Assembly: GCA_009379955.1 (NCBI GenBank)
Contig: WHST01000061.1
Location: 1-37,673, forward strand
Length of the DNA stretch: 37,673 nt
Source of the DNA: Streptosporangiales bacterium
GTDB lineage: Bacteria; Actinomycetota; Actinomycetes; Streptosporangiales; WHST01
Reading direction: 5' to 3'
Notes under the pieces: generated by a model
Database searches by the model: none
What the model saw: the letters and a program-made list of their open reading frames with translations, nothing else
What the model was told of the DNA's origin: nothing
Made by a program: the position numbers and the translations under genes
Shown here: positions 10,997-23,894 of the stretch, in pieces
Position numbering within the stretch: the first letter of the stretch is position 1
Layout: the number at the start of each line of letters is the position of its first letter

Positions 10997-12138
10997 GCCG
11001 CGCGCACCCACTCGGGTCGGGTCGCCGCGACAACGGTGCGCCCGCTGAAGTCGACCATCGCCACGTCGGCGTCGAGACGCTCCCCGCTCGCCCGGACCAG
11101 CACCGAACGCACCCGCGCGCAGATGACGTCACCGACGCGGCGCAACAGGCCCTCGCGTTCCCAGATCTCGTACGCGTGCCTGCCGGTGTTGGCGGCCGCG
11201 ACGGTCACGACGGTCTCGTCGTCTCCGCCGGCAGCACGGGTCAGCTCGGCGAGCAGGTCGAGGTCGACCTTGGAACGCGTGTAGTGCGTCATCAGGACTC
11301 CCGCGGAGAGCTTGGCCAGCTTGCCCGCCATGCCGACGAACACGACTCGCTGGACCCCGACCTCGCACGCCCGACGGATCGCGGCACCGGTGAAGTCGCC
11401 GACCTCGACGAAGCACACGTCCGCGACGTCGGGCAGCAACGCCATCGCGCCCTGCTCGGTACGGCCACCGGTGCACAGCACGACGGTCCGTTCGCCCTGT
11501 GCGGCCATCACGGACACGGCCTGCTCGACGCTCGCCCGCCAGGACGCGGTGGAGAACGGGCGCACGATGCCGGTAGTGCCGAGGATCGAGATGCCGCCGA
11601 GGATGCCGAGCCGCCGGTTCGTCGTCTTGCGCGCCATCCGCTCGCCGTCGGGGACGGAGACGACCACGTGCACGCCGCCGGCGTCCAGGTCCACGACCTC
11701 GCCGACCGCCTGCCGGATCATCGCGCGGGGCGGGCCGGTGATGGACGGCTCACCGACCGGGATGCCGAGCCCGGGCTTGGTGACGATTCCGACGCCCTCG
11801 CCGCCCTCGAGACCGACGCCAGGCTCGTCGCGCCACGACACGGTCACGGTGAGGTGCGCGCCGTGCGTGACGTCGGGGTCGTCACCCGCGTCCTTCACCA
11901 CGACCGCCGTCGCGCGTGCCTCGTCGTAACGACAGCTGTGCACGTCGAACCGCACGCGCCGGCCGCTCGGGATCGCGACCTCCACCTCGTGTTCCTGACG
12001 CTGGTCGCGTAACGCGGACGTCGCCGCCTTCGCCGCCGCGGACGCGCAGGTGCCCGTGGTCCAACCGGTACGCAACGCCTTCTGTCGCACCTTCGCGGTA
12101 CGCGGCAGATCCGGCTCGCGGATCTCGGGTTCGGTCAT
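10993..12138 (-). CDS. cbiD: Cobalt-precorrin-5B C1-methyltransferase
   Basis: CbiD methylates C-1 in the anaerobic-type pathway, in place of the aerobic CobF. The 381-aa protein opens with the hallmark LRTGWTTGTCASAAAKAA, followed by VVKDAGDDPDVTHGA, GIVTKPGLGIPVGEPSI, GGISILGTTGIVRP and FVGMAGKLAKLSAGVLMTH. The start ATG 12138 (MTEPEIREPD) overlaps the cobM stop (ATGA). The open frame above it to 12276 lies within cobM and is not real. CbiD here, with CbiG and CbiX, marks the oxygen-independent type of corrin synthesis. Confidence 0.95.
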   Translation of the reverse strand: MTEPEIREPDLPRTAKVRQKALRTGWTTGTCASAAAKAATSALRDQRQEHEVEVAIPSGRRVRFDVHSCRYDEARATAVVVKDAGDDPDVTHGAHLTVTVSWRDEPGVGLEGGEGVGIVTKPGLGIPVGEPSITGPPRAMIRQAVGEVVDLDAGGVHVVVSVPDGERMARKTTNRRLGILGGISILGTTGIVRPFSTASWRASVEQAVSVMAAQGERTVVLCTGGRTEQGAMALLPDVADVCFVEVGDFTGAAIRRACEVGVQRVVFVGMAGKLAKLSAGVLMTHYTRSKVDLDLLAELTRAAGGDDETVVTVAAANTGRHAYEIWEREGLLRRVGDVICARVRSVLVRASGERLDADVAMVDFSGRTVVAATRPEWVRAA

Positions 12139-12935
12139 GACCGGTTCTCCCGCAACGCGCGCCGCGCCTCCCGGTCCGCCTTGCGGTAACCGTGGAAGTG
12201 GCCAGGGTGGTAGAGGTGCGACCGGGTACCGGCCGCGCCGAGGGCGGCTCCGACGAGGAACAACGTGTGCTTCCACAGCTTGTGCGCCTTCACCGTCGAC
12301 TCCAGCGTGTCGACGGTGCAGGTGACGACGAGCTCCTCGGGCCAGGTCGCCTGGTACGCCACCACGACCGGCGTCTCCGGCGCGTAACCGCCGTCGAGCA
12401 GCTCCTGCCGCAGCTGCCCCGACCTGGCGGCGGCGAGGAACACCGCCATCGTCGTGCGGTGTCTGGCGAACTCGCGTACCTCCTCGCTCGGCGGCATCGG
12501 CGTCTTGCCGCCGCCGAGCCTGGTCAGCACGACCGACTGCGCGACCTCGGGCACGGTCAGCTCGCGGTCGACGATCGCGGCGACGGCGGAGAACGCGCTC
12601 ACCCCGGGGACCGTCTCGTGCGCGAGACCGAGCTCGTCACACAGCTCGCGCTGCTCCTGCACCGCACCCCACAGCGCGGGGTCGCCCGAATGGATACGCG
12701 CGACGACGAGCCCGTCGCGCAAGGCCCGCTCGTAGAGCGGACGCACACCTTCGAGCGGCAGCTGCGCGGAGTCGACGATCTCGGCGCCCGGCCTGGCGTG
12801 CTCGAGCACGTCGGCGTGCACGAGGCTGGCCGCCCACACCACGACGTCCGCGGCCGCGATCGCCCGCGCAGCGCGCAACGTCAACAGGTCTGCGGCACCC
12901 GGCCCGGCGCCGACGAACCACACCTTCGCGGTCAC
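12135..12935 (-). CDS. cobM: Precorrin-4 C11-methyltransferase
   Basis: CobM/CbiF adds the C-11 methyl group using SAM. The 266-aa protein begins KVWFVGAGPGAADLLTLRA, the glycine-rich loop of the tetrapyrrole methylase family, and contains RIHSGDPALWGAVQEQ, ETVPGVSAFSA and the LTRLGGGKTPMP stretch usual in this subgroup. The start is GTG 12935, which overlaps the cobI stop as GTGA. The basic C-terminal tail (YRKADREARRALRENR) is a little longer than in some relatives. It acts in the cytoplasm after the ring-contracting methylation by CobJ. Confidence 0.94.
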   Translation of the reverse strand: MTAKVWFVGAGPGAADLLTLRAARAIAAADVVVWAASLVHADVLEHARPGAEIVDSAQLPLEGVRPLYERALRDGLVVARIHSGDPALWGAVQEQRELCDELGLAHETVPGVSAFSAVAAIVDRELTVPEVAQSVVLTRLGGGKTPMPPSEEVREFARHRTTMAVFLAAARSGQLRQELLDGGYAPETPVVVAYQATWPEELVVTCTVDTLESTVKAHKLWKHTLFLVGAALGAAGTRSHLYHPGHFHGYRKADREARRALRENRS

Positions 12936-13657
12936 AGCTTCCCTCCCCTGCTCGATCTGCGGCCAGGCACCAGCAGGGTGGCGAGGTACGGCGCAGTACC
13001 GGTGACGGCGGCCGCCGGCCTGATCTCCTCATCCGGGAGGCCCAGGCTCGCGCCGTACACGGCGGTGTCGAGCCGGCCGGCCTCGTCGACGGCCTCGAGC
13101 ATCTCGGGCAGGTGTCGGCCGCCCTTGTAGCCGACGACGGTGTCGAACCGCGCGAGCGCGTCGCGGAACCTGCCGACGCCGGCCGTCAGCGGGAACAGCG
13201 CCAGGGTCTCCCTGCCCTCGCACAGCACCACGCCGCTGCGCGCCGCGAGGTCCTGCATCGCGGTGATGCCGGGCACCGTCTCCACACCGACGCCGGGAAC
13301 GCGCTCGCGCACGGTCTGCGCGAGGTAGGTGAAGGTCGAGTACACGTTGGGGTCGCCGATGGTGGCGAACGCGACCGTCGCCGCGCCTTCGCCGTACGCG
13401 GTGACGACGGCGTCGGCGGCCGCGTCCCAGGCCGCCTCGCGACGCGTGCGGTCGGTGCGCTCGTTCAGCGCGAAGACGGTGCGACGCACCCTGTCGTGAT
13501 CGACGTGCGCGCGTACCGTCACCTCAGCGCGGCCCGGTTCGTCGGGCGCGAGCACCGGCACGAGCACCAGGTCTGCGGCACACAGCTCGCGGACCGCCTT
13601 GACCGTCACCAGCTCCGGGTCGCCTGGGCCGACACCCACACCCACCAGCCGCCTCAT
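12932..13657 (-). CDS. cobI: Precorrin-2 C20-methyltransferase
   Basis: CobI/CbiL methylates C-20 of (cobalt-)precorrin-2, the first committed step after SUMT. The 241-aa protein has the family start LVGVGVGPGDPELVTVKAV, then ATIGDPNVYSTFTYL, ETVPGITAMQDLAAR and YKGGRHLPEM. The start ATG 13657 overlaps the cobB stop (ATGA), and its stop overlaps cobM (GTGA). Whether the natural substrate carries cobalt depends on whether CbiX acts first, as its presence in the same operon suggests. Confidence 0.94.
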   Translation of the reverse strand: MRRLVGVGVGPGDPELVTVKAVRELCAADLVLVPVLAPDEPGRAEVTVRAHVDHDRVRRTVFALNERTDRTRREAAWDAAADAVVTAYGEGAATVAFATIGDPNVYSTFTYLAQTVRERVPGVGVETVPGITAMQDLAARSGVVLCEGRETLALFPLTAGVGRFRDALARFDTVVGYKGGRHLPEMLEAVDEAGRLDTAVYGASLGLPDEEIRPAAAVTGTAPYLATLLVPGRRSSRGGKL

Positions 13658-14982
13658 CGCGCCGCCTCGAGCAGACGGATGGCGCGTGCGGGGTCGGCAG
13701 CCCAGTGCAGGTGCAGGTAGGACGCATGCACGTTGCCGTGGACGAAGCCCTCGCGGCGGTCACCGATCCGCCAGGCCGGCGGGTCGCTGTGTGCGGGTTC
13801 GACGACGGTGCGGTGGAACTCGTGCGCCGCGACCTTCGCACCGGCCGGCGCGACCACCGAGTCCATCGCCGCCACTGCCTCGCCGTAGCCGAGGGAGAGC
13901 CGCTCCGTCATCCTCGCCTTCGCGTCGACGACGCCGCACATGGCAGCCCCGTCCAGCTCGCGGGTGAGGTACAGGAGTCCCGCGCACTCCGCGACGATGG
14001 GAGCGCCCGAGGCGGCGAGCCGGTGCACGTCCGCGCGCAGCGGCTCGTTGGCGGACAGCTCGCCCGCGTACACCTCGGGAAAGCCACCGCCCATGACGAG
14101 CGCCGCGGTTCGGTCCGGCAGCGCCTCGTCGTGCAGCGGGTCGAACGTCACGACGTCGGCGCCGGCCGCGGCGAGCAGCTCGGCCGTCTCCGCGTAGGAG
14201 AAGGTGAACGCCCGGCCACCGGCGACAGCCACGACGGGACGCCCCGGCACCGGCTCGACCTCGGGCGTCCACGGCCCGACCGCGAGCGGACCCGCCGTAG
14301 CCGCCAGCGCGACCACAGCGTCCAGATCGACGGATTCGGCGACGACGGCACCGAGCCGCTCGACCAGCGCGACCGCCTCGTCCGCCCGCTCGACAGCAGG
14401 CACGAGACCAAGGTGCCGTGACGGCGTCACGACGGCGTCGGTCCTGCGCAGCGCGCCGAGCACCGGTATGCCCGCGTCGGCGAGCGCGGTGCGCAGGATC
14501 TCCTCGTGTCGGTCGGACGCGACCTGGTTCAACACGATGCCACCCACCCGCACCCGCGTGTCGTACGACGCGAACCCGGCGACGACCGCGGCGACCGAAC
14601 GCCCCTGCGCGGACGCGTCGACGACAAGCACGACGGGCGCGTCGAGCAGCCGTGCGACATGGGCCGCGGACCCGTACGACGTCGTGCCCCGCCCGTCGAA
14701 CATGCCCATCACACCCTCGACGACTGCGACATCGGCGCCCGCGGCGCCGTGCAGGAACAGCGGCCCGACGAGGTCCTCGCCGCACAGCACGGGGTCGAGG
14801 TTGCGACCTGGCCGGCCGCAGGCGAGCGCGTGGTAGCCGGGGTCGATGTAGTCGGGCCCGACCTTGTGCCCGGAGACGGCAAGCCCGCGCGACCGCAACG
14901 CGGCCATCAGCCCGGTGGCCACCGTCGTCTTGCCGTGCCCGGAAGCGGGCGCGGCGACGACGAGTCGAGGGGCTCGGCTCAT
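13654..14982 (-). CDS. cobB: Cobyrinate a,c-diamide synthase (glutamine-hydrolysing)
   Basis: CobB (CbiA) amidates the a and c carboxyls of (hydrogeno/cob)yrinate, using glutamine and ATP. The 442-aa protein has an N-terminal P-loop (ASGHGKTTVATGL, about 13-25) and the HKVGPDYIDPGYH motif. The C-terminal class I glutamine amidotransferase part has its nucleophile in VAECAGLLYLTREL and the later EFHRT histidine region. The start ATG 14982 lies 19 nt after the cobO stop, one of only two real gaps in the operon. Its stop overlaps cobI (ATGA). Confidence 0.95.
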   Translation of the reverse strand: MSRAPRLVVAAPASGHGKTTVATGLMAALRSRGLAVSGHKVGPDYIDPGYHALACGRPGRNLDPVLCGEDLVGPLFLHGAAGADVAVVEGVMGMFDGRGTTSYGSAAHVARLLDAPVVLVVDASAQGRSVAAVVAGFASYDTRVRVGGIVLNQVASDRHEEILRTALADAGIPVLGALRRTDAVVTPSRHLGLVPAVERADEAVALVERLGAVVAESVDLDAVVALAATAGPLAVGPWTPEVEPVPGRPVVAVAGGRAFTFSYAETAELLAAAGADVVTFDPLHDEALPDRTAALVMGGGFPEVYAGELSANEPLRADVHRLAASGAPIVAECAGLLYLTRELDGAAMCGVVDAKARMTERLSLGYGEAVAAMDSVVAPAGAKVAAHEFHRTVVEPAHSDPPAWRIGDRREGFVHGNVHASYLHLHWAADPARAIRLLEAAR

Positions 14983-15001
14983 GCGGGGCCGCCTCCTCGA
15001 G

Positions 15002-15616
15002 TCACCACTCGATCCCCCGCTGGCCCTTCTGGCCCGCGTCCATCGGGTGCTTGACCTTCGTCATCTCGACGACCAGGTCGGCCGCCTCGACGAGGCGTGG
15101 GTCGGCGTTGCGTCCGGTGACGACGACGTGTTGCTGGCCGGACAGGTCGCGCAGCGTCGTCACGACATCGTCGACGTCCACCCAGCCCCACTTCATCGGG
15201 TAGGTGAACTCGTCGAGCACGTAGAACCGGTATGCCTCCGCGGCGAGATCGCGCTTGACCTGTGCCCAGCCCTCACGGGCGTCGGCGGCGTGGTCGTCCG
15301 TCGAGCCGCGGTGCCTGATCCAGGACCACCCCTCGCCCATCTTGTGCCAGGCGACGGTGCCGCCCTCCCCCGTCTGCTCGTGCACCCGGCCGAGCGCACG
15401 CAGCGCCGCCTCCTCGCCGACCTTCCACTTCGCGCTCTTGACGAACTGGAACACCGCGATCGGCCAGCCCTGATTCCACGCCCGCAACGCGAGCCCGAAC
15501 GCGGCCGTCGACTTGCCCTTCATCTCGCCGGTGTGCACGATCAGGAGCGGACGGTGCCTGCGCTGTCTCGTGGTGAGCCCGTCGTCGGGGACGACGAGCG
15601 GCTTCCCCTGTGGCAT
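15002..15616 (-). CDS. cobO: Cob(I)yrinic acid a,c-diamide adenosyltransferase
   Basis: CobO (BtuR/CobA type) transfers the 5'-deoxyadenosyl group of ATP to Co(I) and creates the upper ligand of adenosylcobalamin. The 204-aa protein has a P-loop at about 28-37 (VHTGEMKGKSTAAFG), then VFQFVKSAKWKVGE, a GEGWSW segment, VLDEFTYPMKWGWV and VVTGRNADPRLVEAADLVVEM, all standard for the family. Its ATG 15616 overlaps the chlID stop as TGATG. It needs cobalt in the Co(I) state, so the operon's ferredoxin is a possible electron source. Confidence 0.95.
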   Translation of the reverse strand: MPQGKPLVVPDDGLTTRQRRHRPLLIVHTGEMKGKSTAAFGLALRAWNQGWPIAVFQFVKSAKWKVGEEAALRALGRVHEQTGEGGTVAWHKMGEGWSWIRHRGSTDDHAADAREGWAQVKRDLAAEAYRFYVLDEFTYPMKWGWVDVDDVVTTLRDLSGQQHVVVTGRNADPRLVEAADLVVEMTKVKHPMDAGQKGQRGIEW

Positions 15617-17607
15617 CAGGCAGCCTCCTTGACGGCTCGGACGGTGGACGCCAACGACTGCGCGGCGAGCTCGTCGAGCCGCAGCACGCTGCCGCCCAGC
15701 GCGCCGGCCAACGTCCCCGCGAGACCGAGCCGCACCGGCCCTGACTCGCAGTCGACGACGACGCTCGCGACGTCCGCGGCGACGAGCAGGCCCGCCGCGT
15801 CGTACGCGGCGTCGAGCGGGCGGGTGCCACCGGTCGCGCGCCCGTCGGTGACGAGCACGAGCAGCGGCCGGCGGGCCGGGTCGCGCAGTCGTTCGACGCG
15901 CAACACGTCGTGCGCGCGTACGAGACCAGCGGCCAGCGGCGTGCGGCCACCGGTCGGCAGCACCGTCAACCGCGCCGCGGCAGCGTCGACCGAGGACGTC
16001 GGCGGCAGCGCGGTCTCCGCGCTCGTGCCGCGGAACGTCACCAGGCCGACCTTGTCGCGCCGCTGGTACGCGTCGAGCAACAGCGACAGCACGGCGCCCT
16101 TGACCGCGCCCATCCGCGCCCGTGCCGCCATGGACCCGCTGGCATCGACGACGAACAGCACCAGGTTGCTCTCCCTGCCCTCGTGCCTCGCCTCCCGCAG
16201 GTCGTCGCGTCGCAGCAGCAGGCCGGGTCCGGTCCTGCCACGGGAGTGCTGGTACGGCGCCGCGGCCGCAAGCGTCGCGGGCACATGGAGCCGCGTCACC
16301 CGGCCGCGCGGCGCTCGGGAACCGGTGACCCGCCCTCGCTCGGTCGAGGCCCGCGACCGCCGGCCGGCGGCACCCTCGCCGACGCCCGGTACCTCGAGCC
16401 GTCGCACGGCGAACGTCGCACCAGGCGCGGCCGTCGAGGCGGCGGCGGGCGCCGACGCAGGCTCCGCCTCGTGGCTCGCCGGGTCGGCGCCGTCGCCCGC
16501 CGGCGTCTCCGCAGACGACGGTCCGCCGGAACCGGGATCGTCGCCGTCGGAGTCCTCGGTGCGCCGGCCGCCACCCGGCCCGTCGCCGTCCGGGTCGGGG
16601 TCGTCGGCGGCCTCGGCCAGCGCCTGGTCGAGGTGCTCCTCGTCCAGGTCGGGCGCGTCGAACGGGTTACGCCTGCGACGGTGTGGCAGCGCGAGCCGCG
16701 CCGCGACTCTGACGTCGTCGGCCGTCACCTCGGACCTGCCGTGCCACGCCGCGTGCGCGAGCGCCGCCCGCGTCGTGACGATGTCGGCGCGCAGACCGTC
16801 GACGTCGAATGCCGCGCACACCGAGGCGACCTGGCGCAGCGCCGCGTCCGTCAGCACCACGGCCGGCAACAGGCGCCTCGCCTCGACGATCCGTTGCGCG
16901 AGCTCGTCCTCGGCCGCCTCCCACGAACGTGCGAACGCGACCGGGTCGGCATCGTAAGCGAGCCGGCGCCTGACCACCTCGGCACGTCTCTCGGTGTCCT
17001 TGGGCGCGGCGACGTCGACGGTGAGGCCGAACCGGTCGAGCAGCTGCGGACGCAGCTCGCCCTCTTCCGGGTTCATCGTGCCGACGAGCAGGAACCGCGC
17101 GGCGTGCCGCACCGAGACGCCCTCGCGTTCCACGTACGCGGTGCCGAGCGCGGCGGCGTCGAGCAGCAGGTCGACCACGTGGTCGTGCAGCAGGTTGACC
17201 TCGTCGACGTAGAGCACGCCCCTGTGCGCGGCCGCGAGCAGGCCGGGCTCGTACATCTTGACGCCTTCGGTGAGCGCGCGTTCCACGTCCAGCGAGCCGA
17301 CCACCCGGTCCTCGCTCACGCCCACGGGCAGCTCGACCAGGCGCGCGGACCGCACGTCGGTATCGACGACGCCATGCGGGCCGTCGACGCAGTCAGGGTC
17401 GGGAGCCGCCGGGTCGCAGGAGAACCTGCACCCGCCGACCACGTCGACGCCTGGCAGCACCGCGGTCAGTGCGCGCACCATCGTCGACTTCGCCGTGCCC
17501 TTCTCCCCCCGGACGAGGACGCCGCCGATCGCCGGCGACACCGCGTTGAGCACCAGGGCGAGGCGCGAGTCGTCCATCCCGACGATCGCGCTGAGCGGGT
17601 AGTTCAT
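15616..17607 (-). CDS. chlID: Fused ChlI-ChlD-like AAA+/VWA chelatase subunit (putative cobaltochelatase motor)
   Basis: This is a 663-aa fusion of the two small subunits of a magnesium-chelatase-type enzyme. Residues 1 to about 330 form the AAA+ ChlI part (Walker A GEKGTAKST at 34-42, Walker B LYVDEVNLLHDH). A linker rich in Pro, Asp and Gly follows. The C-terminal VWA domain carries a MIDAS motif DASGS near residue 486. With CobN it would drive ATP-dependent cobalt insertion into hydrogenobyrinate a,c-diamide, as CobS/CobT do in the aerobic pathway. The start ATG 17607 overlaps the cobN stop (ATGA). The longer frame to 17742 is unlikely. Confidence 0.88.
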   Translation of the reverse strand: MNYPLSAIVGMDDSRLALVLNAVSPAIGGVLVRGEKGTAKSTMVRALTAVLPGVDVVGGCRFSCDPAAPDPDCVDGPHGVVDTDVRSARLVELPVGVSEDRVVGSLDVERALTEGVKMYEPGLLAAAHRGVLYVDEVNLLHDHVVDLLLDAAALGTAYVEREGVSVRHAARFLLVGTMNPEEGELRPQLLDRFGLTVDVAAPKDTERRAEVVRRRLAYDADPVAFARSWEAAEDELAQRIVEARRLLPAVVLTDAALRQVASVCAAFDVDGLRADIVTTRAALAHAAWHGRSEVTADDVRVAARLALPHRRRRNPFDAPDLDEEHLDQALAEAADDPDPDGDGPGGGRRTEDSDGDDPGSGGPSSAETPAGDGADPASHEAEPASAPAAASTAAPGATFAVRRLEVPGVGEGAAGRRSRASTERGRVTGSRAPRGRVTRLHVPATLAAAAPYQHSRGRTGPGLLLRRDDLREARHEGRESNLVLFVVDASGSMAARARMGAVKGAVLSLLLDAYQRRDKVGLVTFRGTSAETALPPTSSVDAAAARLTVLPTGGRTPLAAGLVRAHDVLRVERLRDPARRPLLVLVTDGRATGGTRPLDAAYDAAGLLVAADVASVVVDCESGPVRLGLAGTLAGALGGSVLRLDELAAQSLASTVRAVKEAA

Positions 17608-20600
17608 CCGTCCCCTTCCAGATCGCCTTCGAGCTCCAGGTATGTCTCCCGCAGCTGCTCCAAGGTGTCCGCGTCCGGCTCGGCCCACAGCCCACGCTCC
17701 GCGGCCTCGAGCAGCCGTTCCGCGATGCCGCGCATCGCCCACGGGTTGGAGCGGCGCATGAAGTCAGCCATCTGCTCGTCGAACACGTAAGACGACGCGA
17801 GCTGCTCGTACATCCAGTCGTCGACGACGCCCGCGGTCGCGTCGTAGCCGAAGAGGTAGTCGACGGTGGCGGCCAGCTCGAACGCGCCCTTGTAGCCGTG
17901 CCGCTGCATCGCCTGCATCCACCGCGGGTTGACGACACGGGCGCGGAAGACGCGCTTGGTCTCCTCGGCGAGTGTCCGCGTGCGCACCTGGTCAGGTACC
18001 GCGGAGTCCCCGACGTACGCCGCCGGCGAGCTGCCGGTGAGCTGCCTGACCATCGCGACCATGCCGCCGTGGAACTGGAAGTAGTCGTCGGAGTCGACGA
18101 TGTCGTGTTCGCGGGTGTCCTGGTTCTTCGCCGCGACCGAGATGCGCCGGAACGCGCTCTCCATGTCGGCACGGGCGTCGCGACCGTCCAGGCCCCGCCC
18201 GTACGCGTAGCCGCCCCACACTGCGTACACCTCGGCGAGGTCGGCATCGGTACGCCAGTTGCGCGCGTCCATCAACGGCAGCAGGCCCGCGCCGTACGCG
18301 CCGGGCTTGGACCCGAAGATGCGTGTGGTGGCGCGGCGCCTGTCGCCGTGCGTTCGTTCGTCCTCGGTGACATGCGCGCGCACGTAGTTGTCCTCGGCGG
18401 GCTCGTCGAGGTCGGCGACGGCACACACCGCCTGGTCGAGCATCGCGACGACGTGCGGGAACGCGTCGCGGAAGAAGCCGGAGATGCGCACGGTCACGTC
18501 GATCCGCGGCCTGCCGAGCTCGGCGAGTGGCGTCACCTCGATGCCGGTGACCCGTCGCGACGCGTCGTCCCACACCGGCCGAACGCCGAGCAGCGCGAGT
18601 ACCTCCGCGATGTCGTCGCCCTGGGTACGCATCGCCGACGTGCCCCAGACGGTGAGTCCGACGGACCGCGGGTACTCCCCCGTGTCCGCGACGTGCCTGT
18701 CGACCAGCGAGTCGGCGAGCGCGGCGCCGACGTCCCACGCGTTGCGCGAGGGGACGCCCTTCGGGTCGACGGAGTAGAAGTTGCGGCCCGTGGGCAGCAC
18801 GTTGACCAGGCCGCGGGTGGGAGAACCCGACGGTCCCGCGGGCACGTAGCCACCGTCGAGCGCGTGCAACAGGTTGGCGACCTCGTCGGTGGTGCGCTCG
18901 AGCCGTGGCACCACCTCGGCGGCGGCGAACTCCAGCACGCGCACCACGTCCGGCACGTCGCGGCCGAGCAGCTCGGCGGTCACGGCGGCCGCCTTGCCCG
19001 CGTCCCAGCCGCTGGTGTCCATGCTCGCGACGAGCTGCCGCGCCAACGTCTCGACCAGGTCGACCGCGTCGGCACCCGTCACGCTCGGCCCCTCGACCAG
19101 CTCGACGAGCGCGGCGGGCACGTCCACGTGAGCACCGGCACCGGCGAGCAGCGCGCGCTCGTCGAGACCGAAGCCGGCGGCGAGCGCCGCGCGCAGACCC
19201 GGCAGCGCCGCGCGGCCGCCCCACACCTGCGTCGCGCGCAGCACCGCGAGCACGGTGTCGACGCGCTGCTCGCCGGCGGGTGCGTTGCCCAGGATGTGCA
19301 GCCCGTCCCGGATCTGCACGTCCTTGACCTCGCACAGGTAGCCGTCGACGTGCAGCACGAAGTCGTCGAACTCGTCCTCGCCCGGCACCTCGTCCTGGTG
19401 CAGGTCGTGGTGCAGCTGCGCCGCCTGGATCAGCGACCAGACCTGCGCGCGGACGGTGGGCAGCTTCGCCGGGTCGAGCGCCTGGACGGTCGCGTACTCG
19501 TCGAGCAGCTGCTCGAGCTTCGCCAGGTCGCCGTAGGTGTCCGCACGCGCCATCGGCGGGATCATGTGGTCGACCACGGTGGCGTGTGCGCGTCGCTTCG
19601 CCTGAGTGCCCTCGCCGGGGTCGTTCACGATGAACGGGTAGACCAGCGGCAGGTCGCCGAGCACGGCGTCGGGTGCGCAGTCCGCGGAGAGCCCGAGTCC
19701 CTTGCCGGGCAACCACTCCAGCGTGCCGTGCTTGCCGAGGTGCACGACGGCGTCGGCGCCGAACGTCTCGTCTAGCCATCGGTACGCGGCGAGGTAGTGG
19801 TGGCTCGGCGGCAGGTCGGGGTCATGGTAGATCGCCACCGGGTTCTCGCCGAACCCGCGCGGCGGCTGGATCATCAGCACGACGTTGCCGAACCGCAGCG
19901 CCGCGAGCACGATCTCACCACCGTCGACGTACAGCTCGCCCGGCGGATCGCCCCAGTGCCCACGTACGGTCTCACGTAGCGCTGTGGGCTGCCTGGCGAA
20001 CCAGCGCTGGTAGTCGGCGAGCGGCACGCGGAACGGCGCGACGGCGAGCTGCTGCTCGGTCAGCCACTCGACGTCGTGACCACCCGCGGCGATCAGCCGG
20101 TGCACGAGCTCGTCGCCGTCCTCGGGGAAGCCGTCGCCGAGGTCGTAGCCGGCCTCTCGCAGGGCGCGCAGCAGGACGACGGCGGACGCGGGCGTGTCGA
20201 GACCGACGGCGTTGCCGACCCTGGCGTGCTTCGTCGGGTACGACGACAGCACCACCGCGAGCCGCTTGTCCGCGTTCGGCACGTACCGCAGCCGGGCGTA
20301 GCGCACGGCGATGCCGGCGACGCGCGCGGCGCGTTCCTCGTCGGCGACGTAGACGGGCACGTCGCCTTCACCGGTCTCCTTGAACGAGAACGGCACCGTC
20401 ACCAGGCGGCCGTCGAACTCCGGTATCGCCACCTGCATCGCGGCGTCCATGGGCGTGAGCGCGGCGTCCGACGCGAGCCACGTCTGCCGCGACGAGGTGA
20501 GGCAGAGCCCTTGGACGACGGGCACGTCCAGCGACGCGAGCGCGCCGACGTCCCAACCGTCCTCGTCACCGCCCGCCGTCGCGTCGCCTGCCACGGCACC

Positions 20601-21245
20601 GCCGGCGGCCAAGACGGTGACGACGAGCGCGTCGAGGCCGCCGAGCAGGTCGTACACCTCGGCGTCCGCGGAACGCAGCGAACCGCAATAGACGGGCAAC
20701 GCGTTGGCGCCCGCCGCCTCGACGGCATCGGCGAGCGTCTCGACGAAGCCGACGTTGCCGGAGACCGCGTGCGCGCGGTAGAAGACGATGCCGACCGTCG
20801 GGCGGTCGGCGCGCTGCTCGCGTTCGCCGTGCACGCCGCACGTCGGCAGGGCCCTGGGCGGCTCGAAGCCCTCGCCGGTGAGCCTGATCGTGTCGGACAG
20901 GAAGCCGGCCAACTGCGCCAGGTTGTCCGGCCCGCCCTCTCGCAGGTACGCGAGCGCCTCCTTCGCGACGCCCGCAGGAACGGTCGACAGCGCCATCAGC
21001 TCGGCGTCCGGCGCGGACTCACCGCTCAGCACCACCACCGGCAGACCGGAGTCGAGCACCCCACGCAGACCCTGCTCCCAGCTGCGGCTGCCGCCGAGCA
21101 GACGGACGACCACGCAGTACGCGCCGTCGAGCAACGCGGGCACGTCGCCAGGCTCGGTGCGTGCAGGGTTTGCCAGCCGCCATGGCGCACCGCTCGACCT
21201 GGCCGCCAGCAGGTCGGTGTCCGCGGCGGAGAGCAGGACGATCAT
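17604..21245 (-). CDS. cobN: Cobaltochelatase large subunit CobN
   Basis: CobN is the porphyrin/corrin-binding large subunit (ChlH/BchH family) of the ATP-dependent cobaltochelatase. The 1213-aa length is typical. Recognisable are the early [80 protein letters not shown] (about 498-518), and near the end the [22 protein letters not shown] and [17 protein letters not shown] stretches. The start ATG 21245 overlaps the cobQ stop (ATGA), and it is directly followed by its likely motor partner chlID. It coexists here with the early chelatase CbiX. Confidence 0.95.
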
Positions 21246-22729
21246 GGTGCTCCCGGTGGTAGGCAGGGCAGGTCGCTCGGCGGGCCCTGGTCGAGCAGCC
21301 GCGACAGCGCCTCGGTGTCCATGTGCTCGGCGACCAGGTCACCGAGCACGTCCAGCCGGCGTTCCCGCACCTCGGCGAACGTCACGTCGCCCGCGACGAA
21401 CCTGCGTCCGGCCTCGGCGGCGACTGTGCGCAGCAACGCGCGCCTGAAGGCGTCGCACTCGAGCACGCCGTGCCAGGTCGTGCCGCGGACAGCGCCCACC
21501 GCGCAACCGCCGAGGAAGTCGTCGCCGCCCGTCGCCTCGACGACACCGTGGTGGATCTCGTATCCCTCCACGGGTTCGCCGAACGCCGAGCCCGCGGTGC
21601 GGCCGAGGACCTTGCGCGTGCCGAACCGTGTCACGGCCGGCAGCAGCCCGAGCCCGGGTACGACGCCGGCGCCGCTCTCCACGTCGTCGTGGATCTCGCC
21701 CGCCAGCATCTGGTAGCCGCCGCAGATGCCGAGCACCGGCCTGCCGGCCGCCGCGCGTCGCGCGAGCGGCTCGGCGAGGCCACGGTCACGCAGCCAGCCG
21801 AGGTCGCTGACGGTCGCACGCGTCCCAGGCAGCACGACGAGGTCGGCGTCGTGCAGCTCCTCCGGCCTGGTAACGAAGCGGACGACGACTCCAGGCTCGG
21901 CGCCGAGCGCGTCGACGTCGGTGAAGTTGCTGATGTGCGGGAACCGCACGACGGCGACCCGCAGCACGTCGTCGCCCGCGGGCGCGGTCGCCTCGACGCC
22001 GCGTTCGCCGGCGAGGTCGAGCGAGTCCTCGGCGTCCAACCAGAGGCCGTGCACCCACGGCAGCACGCCGACGACACAGCGTCCGGTCAACCGGTGCAGC
22101 ATGTCCAGGCCCGGCTCGAGCAACCGTGCGTCGCCACGGAACTTGTTCACGACGAAGCCGGCCACGAGCCGCTGGTCGGCCTCGTCCAGCAACGCGACCG
22201 TGCCGTACATGCCGGCGAACACGCCGCCCCTGTCGATGTCGCCGACCACGAGCACGGGCAGGTCGGCGGCACGGGCGAGACCCATGTTGGCGAGGTCGCG
22301 GTCGCGCAGGTTGATCTCCGCGGGACTGCCCGCGCCCTCGCAGACGACGACGTCGAACCGCGCGCGCAGGTCGGCGAGGCAGCCGAGCACCGCCTCCTGC
22401 AGGCGCGGCTTCAGGTCCCGGTACGACAGCGCGTCGACCTCCGCGACGGGGGTGTCGAGCAGCATCACCTGGGTGTGCGTGCCGCCGGGCTTCAACAGCA
22501 CCGGGTTCATCGCACCCTCCGGGTCGATGCCCGCCGCGGCCGCCTGCATCGCCTGCGCCCTGCCGATCTCGGCGCCGTCGCGCGTGACGACCGAGTTCAG
22601 CGACATGTTCTGCGCCTTGAAGGGCGCGACCTTGACGCCCTCCCGGGCCAGCCAACGACAGATGCCGGCGGTGACGACACTCTTGCCGGCGTCCGACGTC
22701 GTGCCCGCCACCAGCAACCCGTTACTCAT
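21242..22729 (-). CDS. cobQ: Cobyric acid synthase (glutamine-hydrolysing)
   Basis: CobQ (CbiP) amidates the b, d, e and g side chains of adenosylcobyrinic acid a,c-diamide. The 495-aa protein starts with an ATP-binding part, [20 protein letters not shown], then [25 protein letters not shown] and DRGGVFA. The C-terminal glutamine amidotransferase half has [13 protein letters not shown], the nucleophile motif [12 protein letters not shown] and the EGYEIHHG histidine motif. The start ATG 22729 overlaps the cobD stop (ATGA). The frame open above it to 23191 runs through cobD and is a shadow. Confidence 0.95.
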
Positions 22730-23646
22730 CGACGCCTCCAGCTGACGGCGACGGCAATGGCGAGTGCCGCGACACCCACGAGACGTGACAGGCGAACCGC
22801 ACGGTCGATGTCGTCGACCGTGGGCGGATGCCCGTCGCCGAGCACACCTCGGATCTCCACGCGCCCGCCGTACACGTTCGTGCCACCGAGCCGTACGCCG
22901 AGCGCGCCGGCGAACGCGGCCTCGACCGGACCCGCGTTGGGGCTCGGATGCGCGGACGCGTCCCTGCGCACCGCACGCAAGGCACGCGGCGTACTGCCAC
23001 CGACCAGCGGCGCGAGCAGAGCGGTCAGCAGGCACGTCACCCTGGCCGGCACATAGTTCGCGACGTCGTCGAGCCGCGCGGCCGTCCAGCCGAACCGCGC
23101 GTACCTGTCGTCGCGGTGGCCGATCATCGCGTCGAGCGTGTTGACCGCTCGGTACGTGAGCAGGCCGGGAACGCCCGCGACGGCGCCCCACAGAAGTGGC
23201 GCGACCACGGCGTCCGAGGTGTTCTCCGCGACCGACTCGACCGTCGCCCTGGTCAACCCGTCGCGGTCGAGACCTTCGGGATCACGTCCGCAGAGGTGGC
23301 CGATACGGTCGCGCGCGGCTGGTACGTCGTCGCGACCCAGCAGGTCGCCCATTGCGGAACCCTCGCGTGCCAGCGTCGTACCACCCAGCACCGCCCACGT
23401 CGAGAGCGCGACAGCGACACCCCTGCCCGCACGCTCGACGAGGACGCCGAGCACGGCGACCCCACCCGCGAAGGCGAGCGTGAAGAGTGCACCACGAGCG
23501 CGTTCGTCCGCCCAGAACCGGCGCTCGGCAGCAGTGACCGCACCACCGAACGCCGCGACCGGATGAGCCCGACGCGGGTCGGCGATCAGCAGGTCGAGGG
23601 CGGATCCGAACAACAGCCCGAGCGCACGCTCGGACCGCCGCGTCAT
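22726..23646 (-). CDS. cobD: Adenosylcobinamide-phosphate synthase (aminopropanol attachment)
   Basis: CobD (CbiB), a membrane protein, attaches (R)-1-amino-2-propanol or its phosphate to adenosylcobyric acid. The 306-aa protein has hydrophobic segments and the family motifs [58 protein letters not shown] and [19 protein letters not shown]. It is the first large gene of the operon. ATG 23646 has no well-placed Shine-Dalgarno: a GAGGTG lies too far upstream. It overlaps the stop of a short leader ORF (ATGA), so it is probably translated by coupling. Note the naming clash with Salmonella CobD, which is the CobC type here. Confidence 0.94.
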
Positions 23647-23714
23647 CGACGCGGCGTCGGAATCACCTCAGCGAAGCGGGGAACGAGTAACACTCGAGAG
23701 TCGCATACGGCCAT
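23643..23714 (-). CDS. 23-codon leader ORF overlapping the cobD start
   Basis: After the riboswitch, ATG 23714 opens a 23-aa frame (begins MAVCDSRVLLVPRF, ends TPRR) whose TGA overlaps the cobD ATG as ATGA, exactly like most junctions downstream. The strong Shine-Dalgarno GAGGAAGG lies 10 nt upstream; a GTG at 23720 in the same frame would add two residues. I do not recognise the peptide. Its likely role is to be the ribosome entry point under riboswitch control, with cobD read by coupling. It is inferred from the layout only. Confidence 0.45.
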   Translation of the reverse strand: MAVCDSRVLLVPRFAEVIPTPRR

Positions 23715-23724
23715 GCGCACTCAT

Positions 23725-23732
23725 CCTTCCTC
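23725..23732 (-). promoter_or_regulatory. Strong ribosome-binding site of the leader ORF
   Basis: GAGGAAGG on the minus strand directly follows the CCCC arm of the hairpin at 23733-23748. It is the best Shine-Dalgarno between the riboswitch and cobD, and is placed for the ATG at 23714 or the GTG at 23720. An ATG at 23724 is too close to use it well. Its contact with the riboswitch hairpin makes it the likely control point. Confidence 0.55.
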
Positions 23733-23855
23733 GGGGTATCCACGCCCCAAACGAAGTGCTCGACGGCCGGAGTTCCTGGCTCCCGGTCGCTGGACCGGTG
23801 ACAGTGGCGGGACCGCGTCGGACTCGCACCGACTTCCTCCACATGCCGTCGACGG
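23733..23855 (-). ncRNA. Cobalamin (AdoCbl-type) riboswitch
   Basis: In the minus-strand leader I read the conserved core in order: GGAAGTCGGTGCGAGTCCG (about 23818-23836), GCGGTCCCGCCACTGT (just after), a hairpin around ACCGGTCCAGCGACCGG, and the B12 box GGAGCCAGGAACTCCGGCC (about 23764-23782). A closing P1 stem pairs TCGACGG (23846-23852) with CCGTCGA (23760-23766). A hairpin GGGG-CGTGGATA-CCCC (23733-23748) follows; its loop has GTGG, complementary to the CCAC of the core, as expected for the L5-L13 kissing contact. It adjoins the Shine-Dalgarno, suggesting translational repression by adenosylcobalamin. Confidence 0.9.
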
Positions 23856-23864
23856 ACGCTTGGA

Positions 23865-23894
23865 AGAACACCACAAGCGGCGACGTACCGTCAA
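23865..23894 (-). promoter_or_regulatory. Candidate promoter of the cobalamin operon
   Basis: TTGACG (23894-23889, minus strand) is a good -35 box. Eighteen nt on is TGTTCT (23870-23865), a weak -10. Transcription would then start near 23858, just before the riboswitch P1 stem. The fit of position supports it, but the -10 is poor and no start site is known. Confidence 0.4.

Follow-up and report, generated by a model that had tools for sequence, protein, structure and literature searches.

In Mycobacterium tuberculosis, the upstream ORF (uORF) uPPE2 is controlled by a B12 riboswitch and shares an AUGA overlap with PPE2, whose expression requires it (Kipkorir et al., 2024; PMC11260477). Experiments showed that the two are coupled mainly by AUGA-dependent termination-reinitiation, with a minor fusion product (PMC11260477). 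In the same species, rv1805A is a uORF controlled by an Mbox, with a conserved peptide and Rho-dependent termination (PMC12810186). Termination-reinitiation at NTGA overlaps is also described between ordinary genes (Huber et al., 2019, as cited in PMC11260477). For Streptomyces lividans TK24, the passages found of a genome re-annotation give the riboswitch of cobD and eight amino-acid leader peptides, and contain no leader ORF at cobD (PMC8079986).

Here we describe a stretch of 37,673 nucleotides from a Streptosporangiales bacterium (contig WHST01000061.1, hereafter the window), in which a 23-codon ORF lies between a cobalamin riboswitch and cobD. This ORF is very likely a relay cistron for translational coupling, the riboswitch controlling its Shine-Dalgarno (SD) sequence and start, and ribosomes reinitiating at cobD. 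The locus resembles uPPE2-PPE2 in its cobalamin riboswitch, the SD of a short uORF, the AUGA overlap, and a downstream gene without an SD (PMC11260477). It differs in its first gene, which is cobD at the head of a cobD-cobQ-cobN-chelatase operon, in its occurrence in another family, and in its unrelated peptide. As with rv1805A, the small uORF would be the direct translational target of a riboswitch, but rv1805A has a magnesium riboswitch, a conserved peptide and Rho-dependent termination (PMC12810186). With the NTGA pairs of Huber et al. (2019, as cited in PMC11260477) it shares the geometry and, we assume, the mechanism, whereas upstream it has no gene but a short ORF, disposable and controlled by a riboswitch. 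The riboswitch family and gene order are those of the (Cobalamin)-cobD-cobQ-cobN operon of S. lividans, as given in the same re-annotation passages (PMC8079986). A term search of the uPPE2 paper (PMC11260477) gives no mention of Streptomyces, cobD, cobN or actinobacteria, and no report of such a relay outside mycobacteria was found in the literature searched, mostly without subscription papers. As far as that literature shows, the breadth of this layout appears to be unreported.

Anatomy of the cobD leader

The features of the leader and of the operon behind it are as follows:

23748..23865, minus strand: cobalamin riboswitch aptamer (RF00174), short form without most of the P6 extension; 44.6 bits (gathering score 31.5)
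23733..23748, minus strand: expression-platform hairpin, P13-like, GGGG-CGTGGATA-CCCC (N8 loop), from the sequence
23725..23731, minus strand: SD AGGAAGG of the leader ORF, 10 nt before its ATG, from the sequence
23643..23714, minus strand: leader (relay) ORF of 23 codons (23 aa), from ATG 23714 to TGA 23643
23643..23646, minus strand: ATGA stop/start overlap of the leader ORF with cobD, from the sequence
22726..23646, minus strand: cobD (cbiB), PF03186, E 1.5e-91
21242..22729, minus strand: cobQ, its GATase_3 and CbiA domains found on a stretch slightly shorter than these coordinates; overlaps cobD by ATGA and has an SD of its own, GGAGG
17604..21245, minus strand: cobN, PF02514; ATGA overlap with cobQ
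15616..17607, minus strand: Mg-chelatase-type ATPase gene (AAA and VWA), PF01078 and PF13519; ATGA overlap with cobN

The aptamer scores above the gathering value of RF00174 and contains the B12 box; the custom model R1 gives it 132 bits, the window being one of R1's own sequences. Its cobalamin binding and regulation are putative. The expression-platform hairpin follows, and AGGAAGG, whose duplex with the anti-SD has an energy of -11.6 kcal/mol, starts 2 nt past the hairpin arm CCCC (23736-23733). An earlier note on this DNA had claimed that a strong SD touches the riboswitch hairpin and that the ORF using it ends exactly on the cobD start; the positions agree with both statements, the stop and the start being joined in ATGA 23646-23643. 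In 80 aligned loci the outer pairs of the hairpin are G-C, A-U, C-G, U-G or U-A, and the inner ones are mostly G-C. Judging from this alignment, in which the outer pairs vary yet remain paired in most loci, the hairpin before the SD is genuine. Two other starts lie behind the SD, GTG 23720 in the leader frame and ATG 23724 out of frame; of the three, only ATG 23714 is common to the window and its same-genus relative. A simple consensus scan found no intrinsic terminator after the aptamer, such as a transcription-terminating riboswitch would have, and no sigma-70 promoter was found.

The note had also held that cobD has no well-placed ribosome-binding site. Indeed, no SD run of at least 4 nt is found at a spacing of 4-12 nt, and the 8-nt SD-like GAGGTGAT sits 15 nt upstream of the start. 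The locus presents three elements of a uPPE2-type relay: a short ORF on an SD after the riboswitch hairpin, an NTGA overlap with the downstream start (ATGA in the window, GTGA in the relative), and a downstream gene without its own SD, the 8-nt run at 15 nt nonetheless being there. This run could aid direct or reinitiating ribosomes in the window. It is not kept in the relative, where it reads GAGCTGCC, with TGATC 8 nt before cobD and no GGAGG core. The three other riboswitch matches in the genome of the window precede genes with their own SD, and such a leader is absent at all three.

Conservation of the leader

The genus sample consists of three genomes, of which one besides the window has cobD (71% identical) and the third is 77% complete; searches of the genus and family found this single relative with cobD. 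Its riboswitch scores 83.1 bits with RF00174. The hairpin, SD, ATG and 23-codon leader length are kept, the leader overlaps cobD by GTGA, and the alignment with the window is gap-free inside the leader ORF. The peptides are barely alike, the 23-aa peptide of the window standing against MALRVPRVSPASPTVELPLISPR in the relative. The riboswitches (2516-2697 in the relative's locus L006, 23748-23865 in the window) differ by about 54 nt, the P6 extension being kept in L006 and missing in the window. TTA, a rare leucine codon, occurs in both leaders, as codon 9 in the window (23643-23714) and codon 3 in L006 (2412-2483); it was not obvious in the Streptomyces leaders read.

Among order-mates (L087-L114, best cobD matches only), a simple B12-box pattern, with a reading of its few hits, revealed no riboswitch at the distance expected. 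Because of this, and since genus and family gave one relative, the comparison was extended to Streptomyces and to the class. In a public scan, many Streptomyces cobD loci have a riboswitch at the same distance as in the window, and Rfam confirmed 18 of the 20 tested. The hairpin and SD pattern matched 110 of 150 Streptomycetaceae genomes, and the reversed pattern matched none; the pattern is strict, and the 40 unmatched genomes are no evidence of absence. Nearly all analysable pattern sites (108/109) stand before cobD. Together with the first Streptomyces set and the genus pair (2), the pattern sites make up 144 loci. These genomes are related, so that the counts that follow, made with no phylogenetic correction, overstate independence and are not p-values.

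A separate leader ORF of 13-45 codons is present in 117 of the 144 loci (115 Streptomycetaceae and the genus pair). In the remaining 27, the ATG nearest the riboswitch shares the frame of cobD: the ordinary cobD ATG lies directly behind the SD in L044 and L061, and an N-terminal CobD extension is read from the riboswitch-proximal ATG in L049 and L067. In all 117 separate leaders, the stop is no more than 16 nt away from a cobD start codon. It most often lies 4 nt ahead of the start (56 loci), followed by offsets of -1, or NTGA (16), and of -10 (15). Most Streptomyces loci have the stop 3-5 nt before the cobD start without overlap, a geometry near to that of the window and not identical to it. 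This offset count takes the cobD start nearest to the leader stop, which favors the result, and for this reason an unbiased count was also made of leader stops within a fixed zone before the conserved DP motif. A stop falls in this cobD-start zone in 113 of 117 loci in frame 0, and in 33 and 15 in the other frames; among shuffled leaders the figure is 14.5%. An SD run precedes the leader in 117/117 loci and cobD in 6/117. All three phases relative to cobD are occupied (60, 47 and 10 loci). Since the leaders vary in length and occupy every phase, the property that is kept is the position of the stop.

What was observed directly is the anatomy, with a geometry that is conserved. The check that the note had proposed in relatives, for a kept frame, a stop overlap and no separate SD for cobD, was passed by the same-genus relative and by 115 Streptomycetaceae leaders. 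None of them has a stop or frameshift leaving the leader end far from cobD, and there is no conserved, well-placed cobD SD.

Distribution in the class

Across 395 genomes of the class, a covariance model made from 20 cobD leaders had widespread matches. Sixty matches outside Streptomycetaceae were read, top-scoring rather than random, with the first gene assigned mechanically. A short leader ends beside a long ORF in 22 of the 60, with an exact -1 overlap in 18 of these 22, across eight of the tabulated families. The long ORFs examined are cobN, a Mg-chelatase ATPase, cobD, PPE and a methylenetetrahydrofolate reductase, the others being assigned by similarity to these. In about 30 others of the 60, the SD-proximal start is that of the gene itself. 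In order-mates, cobN behind this riboswitch type has either of two layouts (L267, L269, L271 and L275 versus L272, L273 and L277), being opened directly or via a relay of 14-41 codons with a GTGA overlap, so that nature offers both designs for a single gene. PPE loci with the relay layout and its NTGA (L274, L283, L284, L285 and L287, with PPE confirmed by Pfam in L284) were picked up by the same model as the cobD leaders. By their layout, they look like the uPPE2-PPE2 relay of M. tuberculosis.

We consider it rather probable that in Actinomycetes a cobalamin riboswitch of this type is a self-contained translational cassette with its own SD and start, and that genes are placed behind it either directly or via a disposable relay of which only the stop site is conserved. 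uPPE2 would then be one case of a common B12-operon design, and an arrangement that seems peculiar to ppe2 of M. tuberculosis may occur widely among operons for B12 biosynthesis. This suggests that one translational riboswitch may govern a gene without any change to that gene's start region. Reporter fusions or annotations that start at cobD, or treat the leader as untranslated, would put the control point in the wrong place. Relay, fused and direct loci form a natural series, with which the coupling can be tested directly in a harmless Streptomyces.

Proposed mechanism and alternatives

From this organization we infer that B12 is bound, that control is in the OFF direction, that the ORF is translated, and that coupling works by reinitiation. 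The cobalamin riboswitch would act on the SD and start codon directly after the expression-platform hairpin. When cobalamin is low, both would be free and ribosomes would translate the leader ORF. After stopping at the UGA within AUGA, they would immediately restart on the cobD AUG that overlaps it and lacks a well-placed SD. With cobalamin bound, the hairpin would close, the leader would not be started, and few ribosomes would reach cobD. Further ATGA overlaps would pass the coupling to cobQ, cobN and the chelatase gene. The comparison supports the earlier suggestion that the riboswitch may control the small ORF, with coupling probably reaching the operon, and this relay reading is very probably right.

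Coupling could instead work by unmasking: a hairpin at the cobD start would block direct initiation until ribosomes on the leader melt it, and new 30S subunits would then bind, perhaps via GAGGTGAT. In the window, the start does fold into an 8-bp hairpin, CCGCGUC-GAU-GACGCGG, whose tip carries the start codon (z -1.61; equal stability in 14 of 200 shuffles), and G001 is able to form a 5-bp hairpin at the same site, although with a z of +0.97. As a general conserved basis of coupling, the start-codon hairpin was rejected: the cobD-start region of the 117 loci is no more structured than shuffles (mean z 0.05), the cobD start is unpaired at 0.48 versus 0.45 in shuffles, and the SD-like run is not kept. 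Because the hairpin is not general, termination-reinitiation is preferred, and unmasking is unlikely.

It is very doubtful that the leader peptide is functional, by attenuation or as a small protein, and that the overlap is incidental. The rv1805A uORF of M. tuberculosis, riboswitch-controlled and with a conserved peptide, gives such a reading a precedent, and in close leader pairs there is a slight third-position excess (123, 101 and 144 changes by codon position). However, leader peptides of equal length are often less than 30% identical, and as low as 7-12%, which is not the conserved or residue-biased peptide that a peptide-sensing leader (attenuator) would have. Leader lengths run from 13 to 45 codons, the GC content by codon position (72/79/78%) gives no coding signature, and no amino-acid enrichment is evident by eye. 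A conserved peptide or codon bias was thus ruled out as absent across the leaders, and the codon bias that the note had proposed to look for is not there. The lack of a coding signature points to the act of translation rather than to the peptide, which is probably disposable. On this comparative evidence, conservation lies in the place where translation ends.

A leader-CobD fusion as the main product, made by stop-codon suppression or frameshifting at AUGA, would have its counterpart in the minor product of uPPE2-PPE2. It is highly improbable, with leaders in all three frames and ten loci that keep an in-frame stop just before the cobD start, which a fusion would not need. Finally, 23 open codons come easily in high-GC DNA, and the window alone is weak evidence (14.5% in shuffles), but a chance ORF before a cobD translated, uncoupled, from its own start is scarcely credible when the relative and 115 Streptomycetaceae loci retain the leader, always with its stop at cobD, and about 20 more loci of several other families have it too.

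Operon and neighboring genes

The cobD-cobQ, cobQ-cobN and cobN-chelatase junctions are ATGA overlaps with SD-like runs. Such runs at ATGA junctions are common in compact operons. Most of the cobalamin-operon junctions in 12135-21245 (minus strand) are 4-nt overlaps, further ones downstream included. The 10-mer GCGTCGATGA is common to the leader-cobD and cobD-cobQ junctions. Divergent to the operon lies a histidine-phosphatase-family gene (PF00300, 23927-24469, plus strand), a plausible site for a CobC-like alpha-ribazole phosphatase. Beyond it, between 24500 and 25900, the ORF list read by eye has overlapping broken frames like an acyl-CoA dehydrogenase fragment and a transposase, which suggests that this region beside the operon is insertion-damaged.
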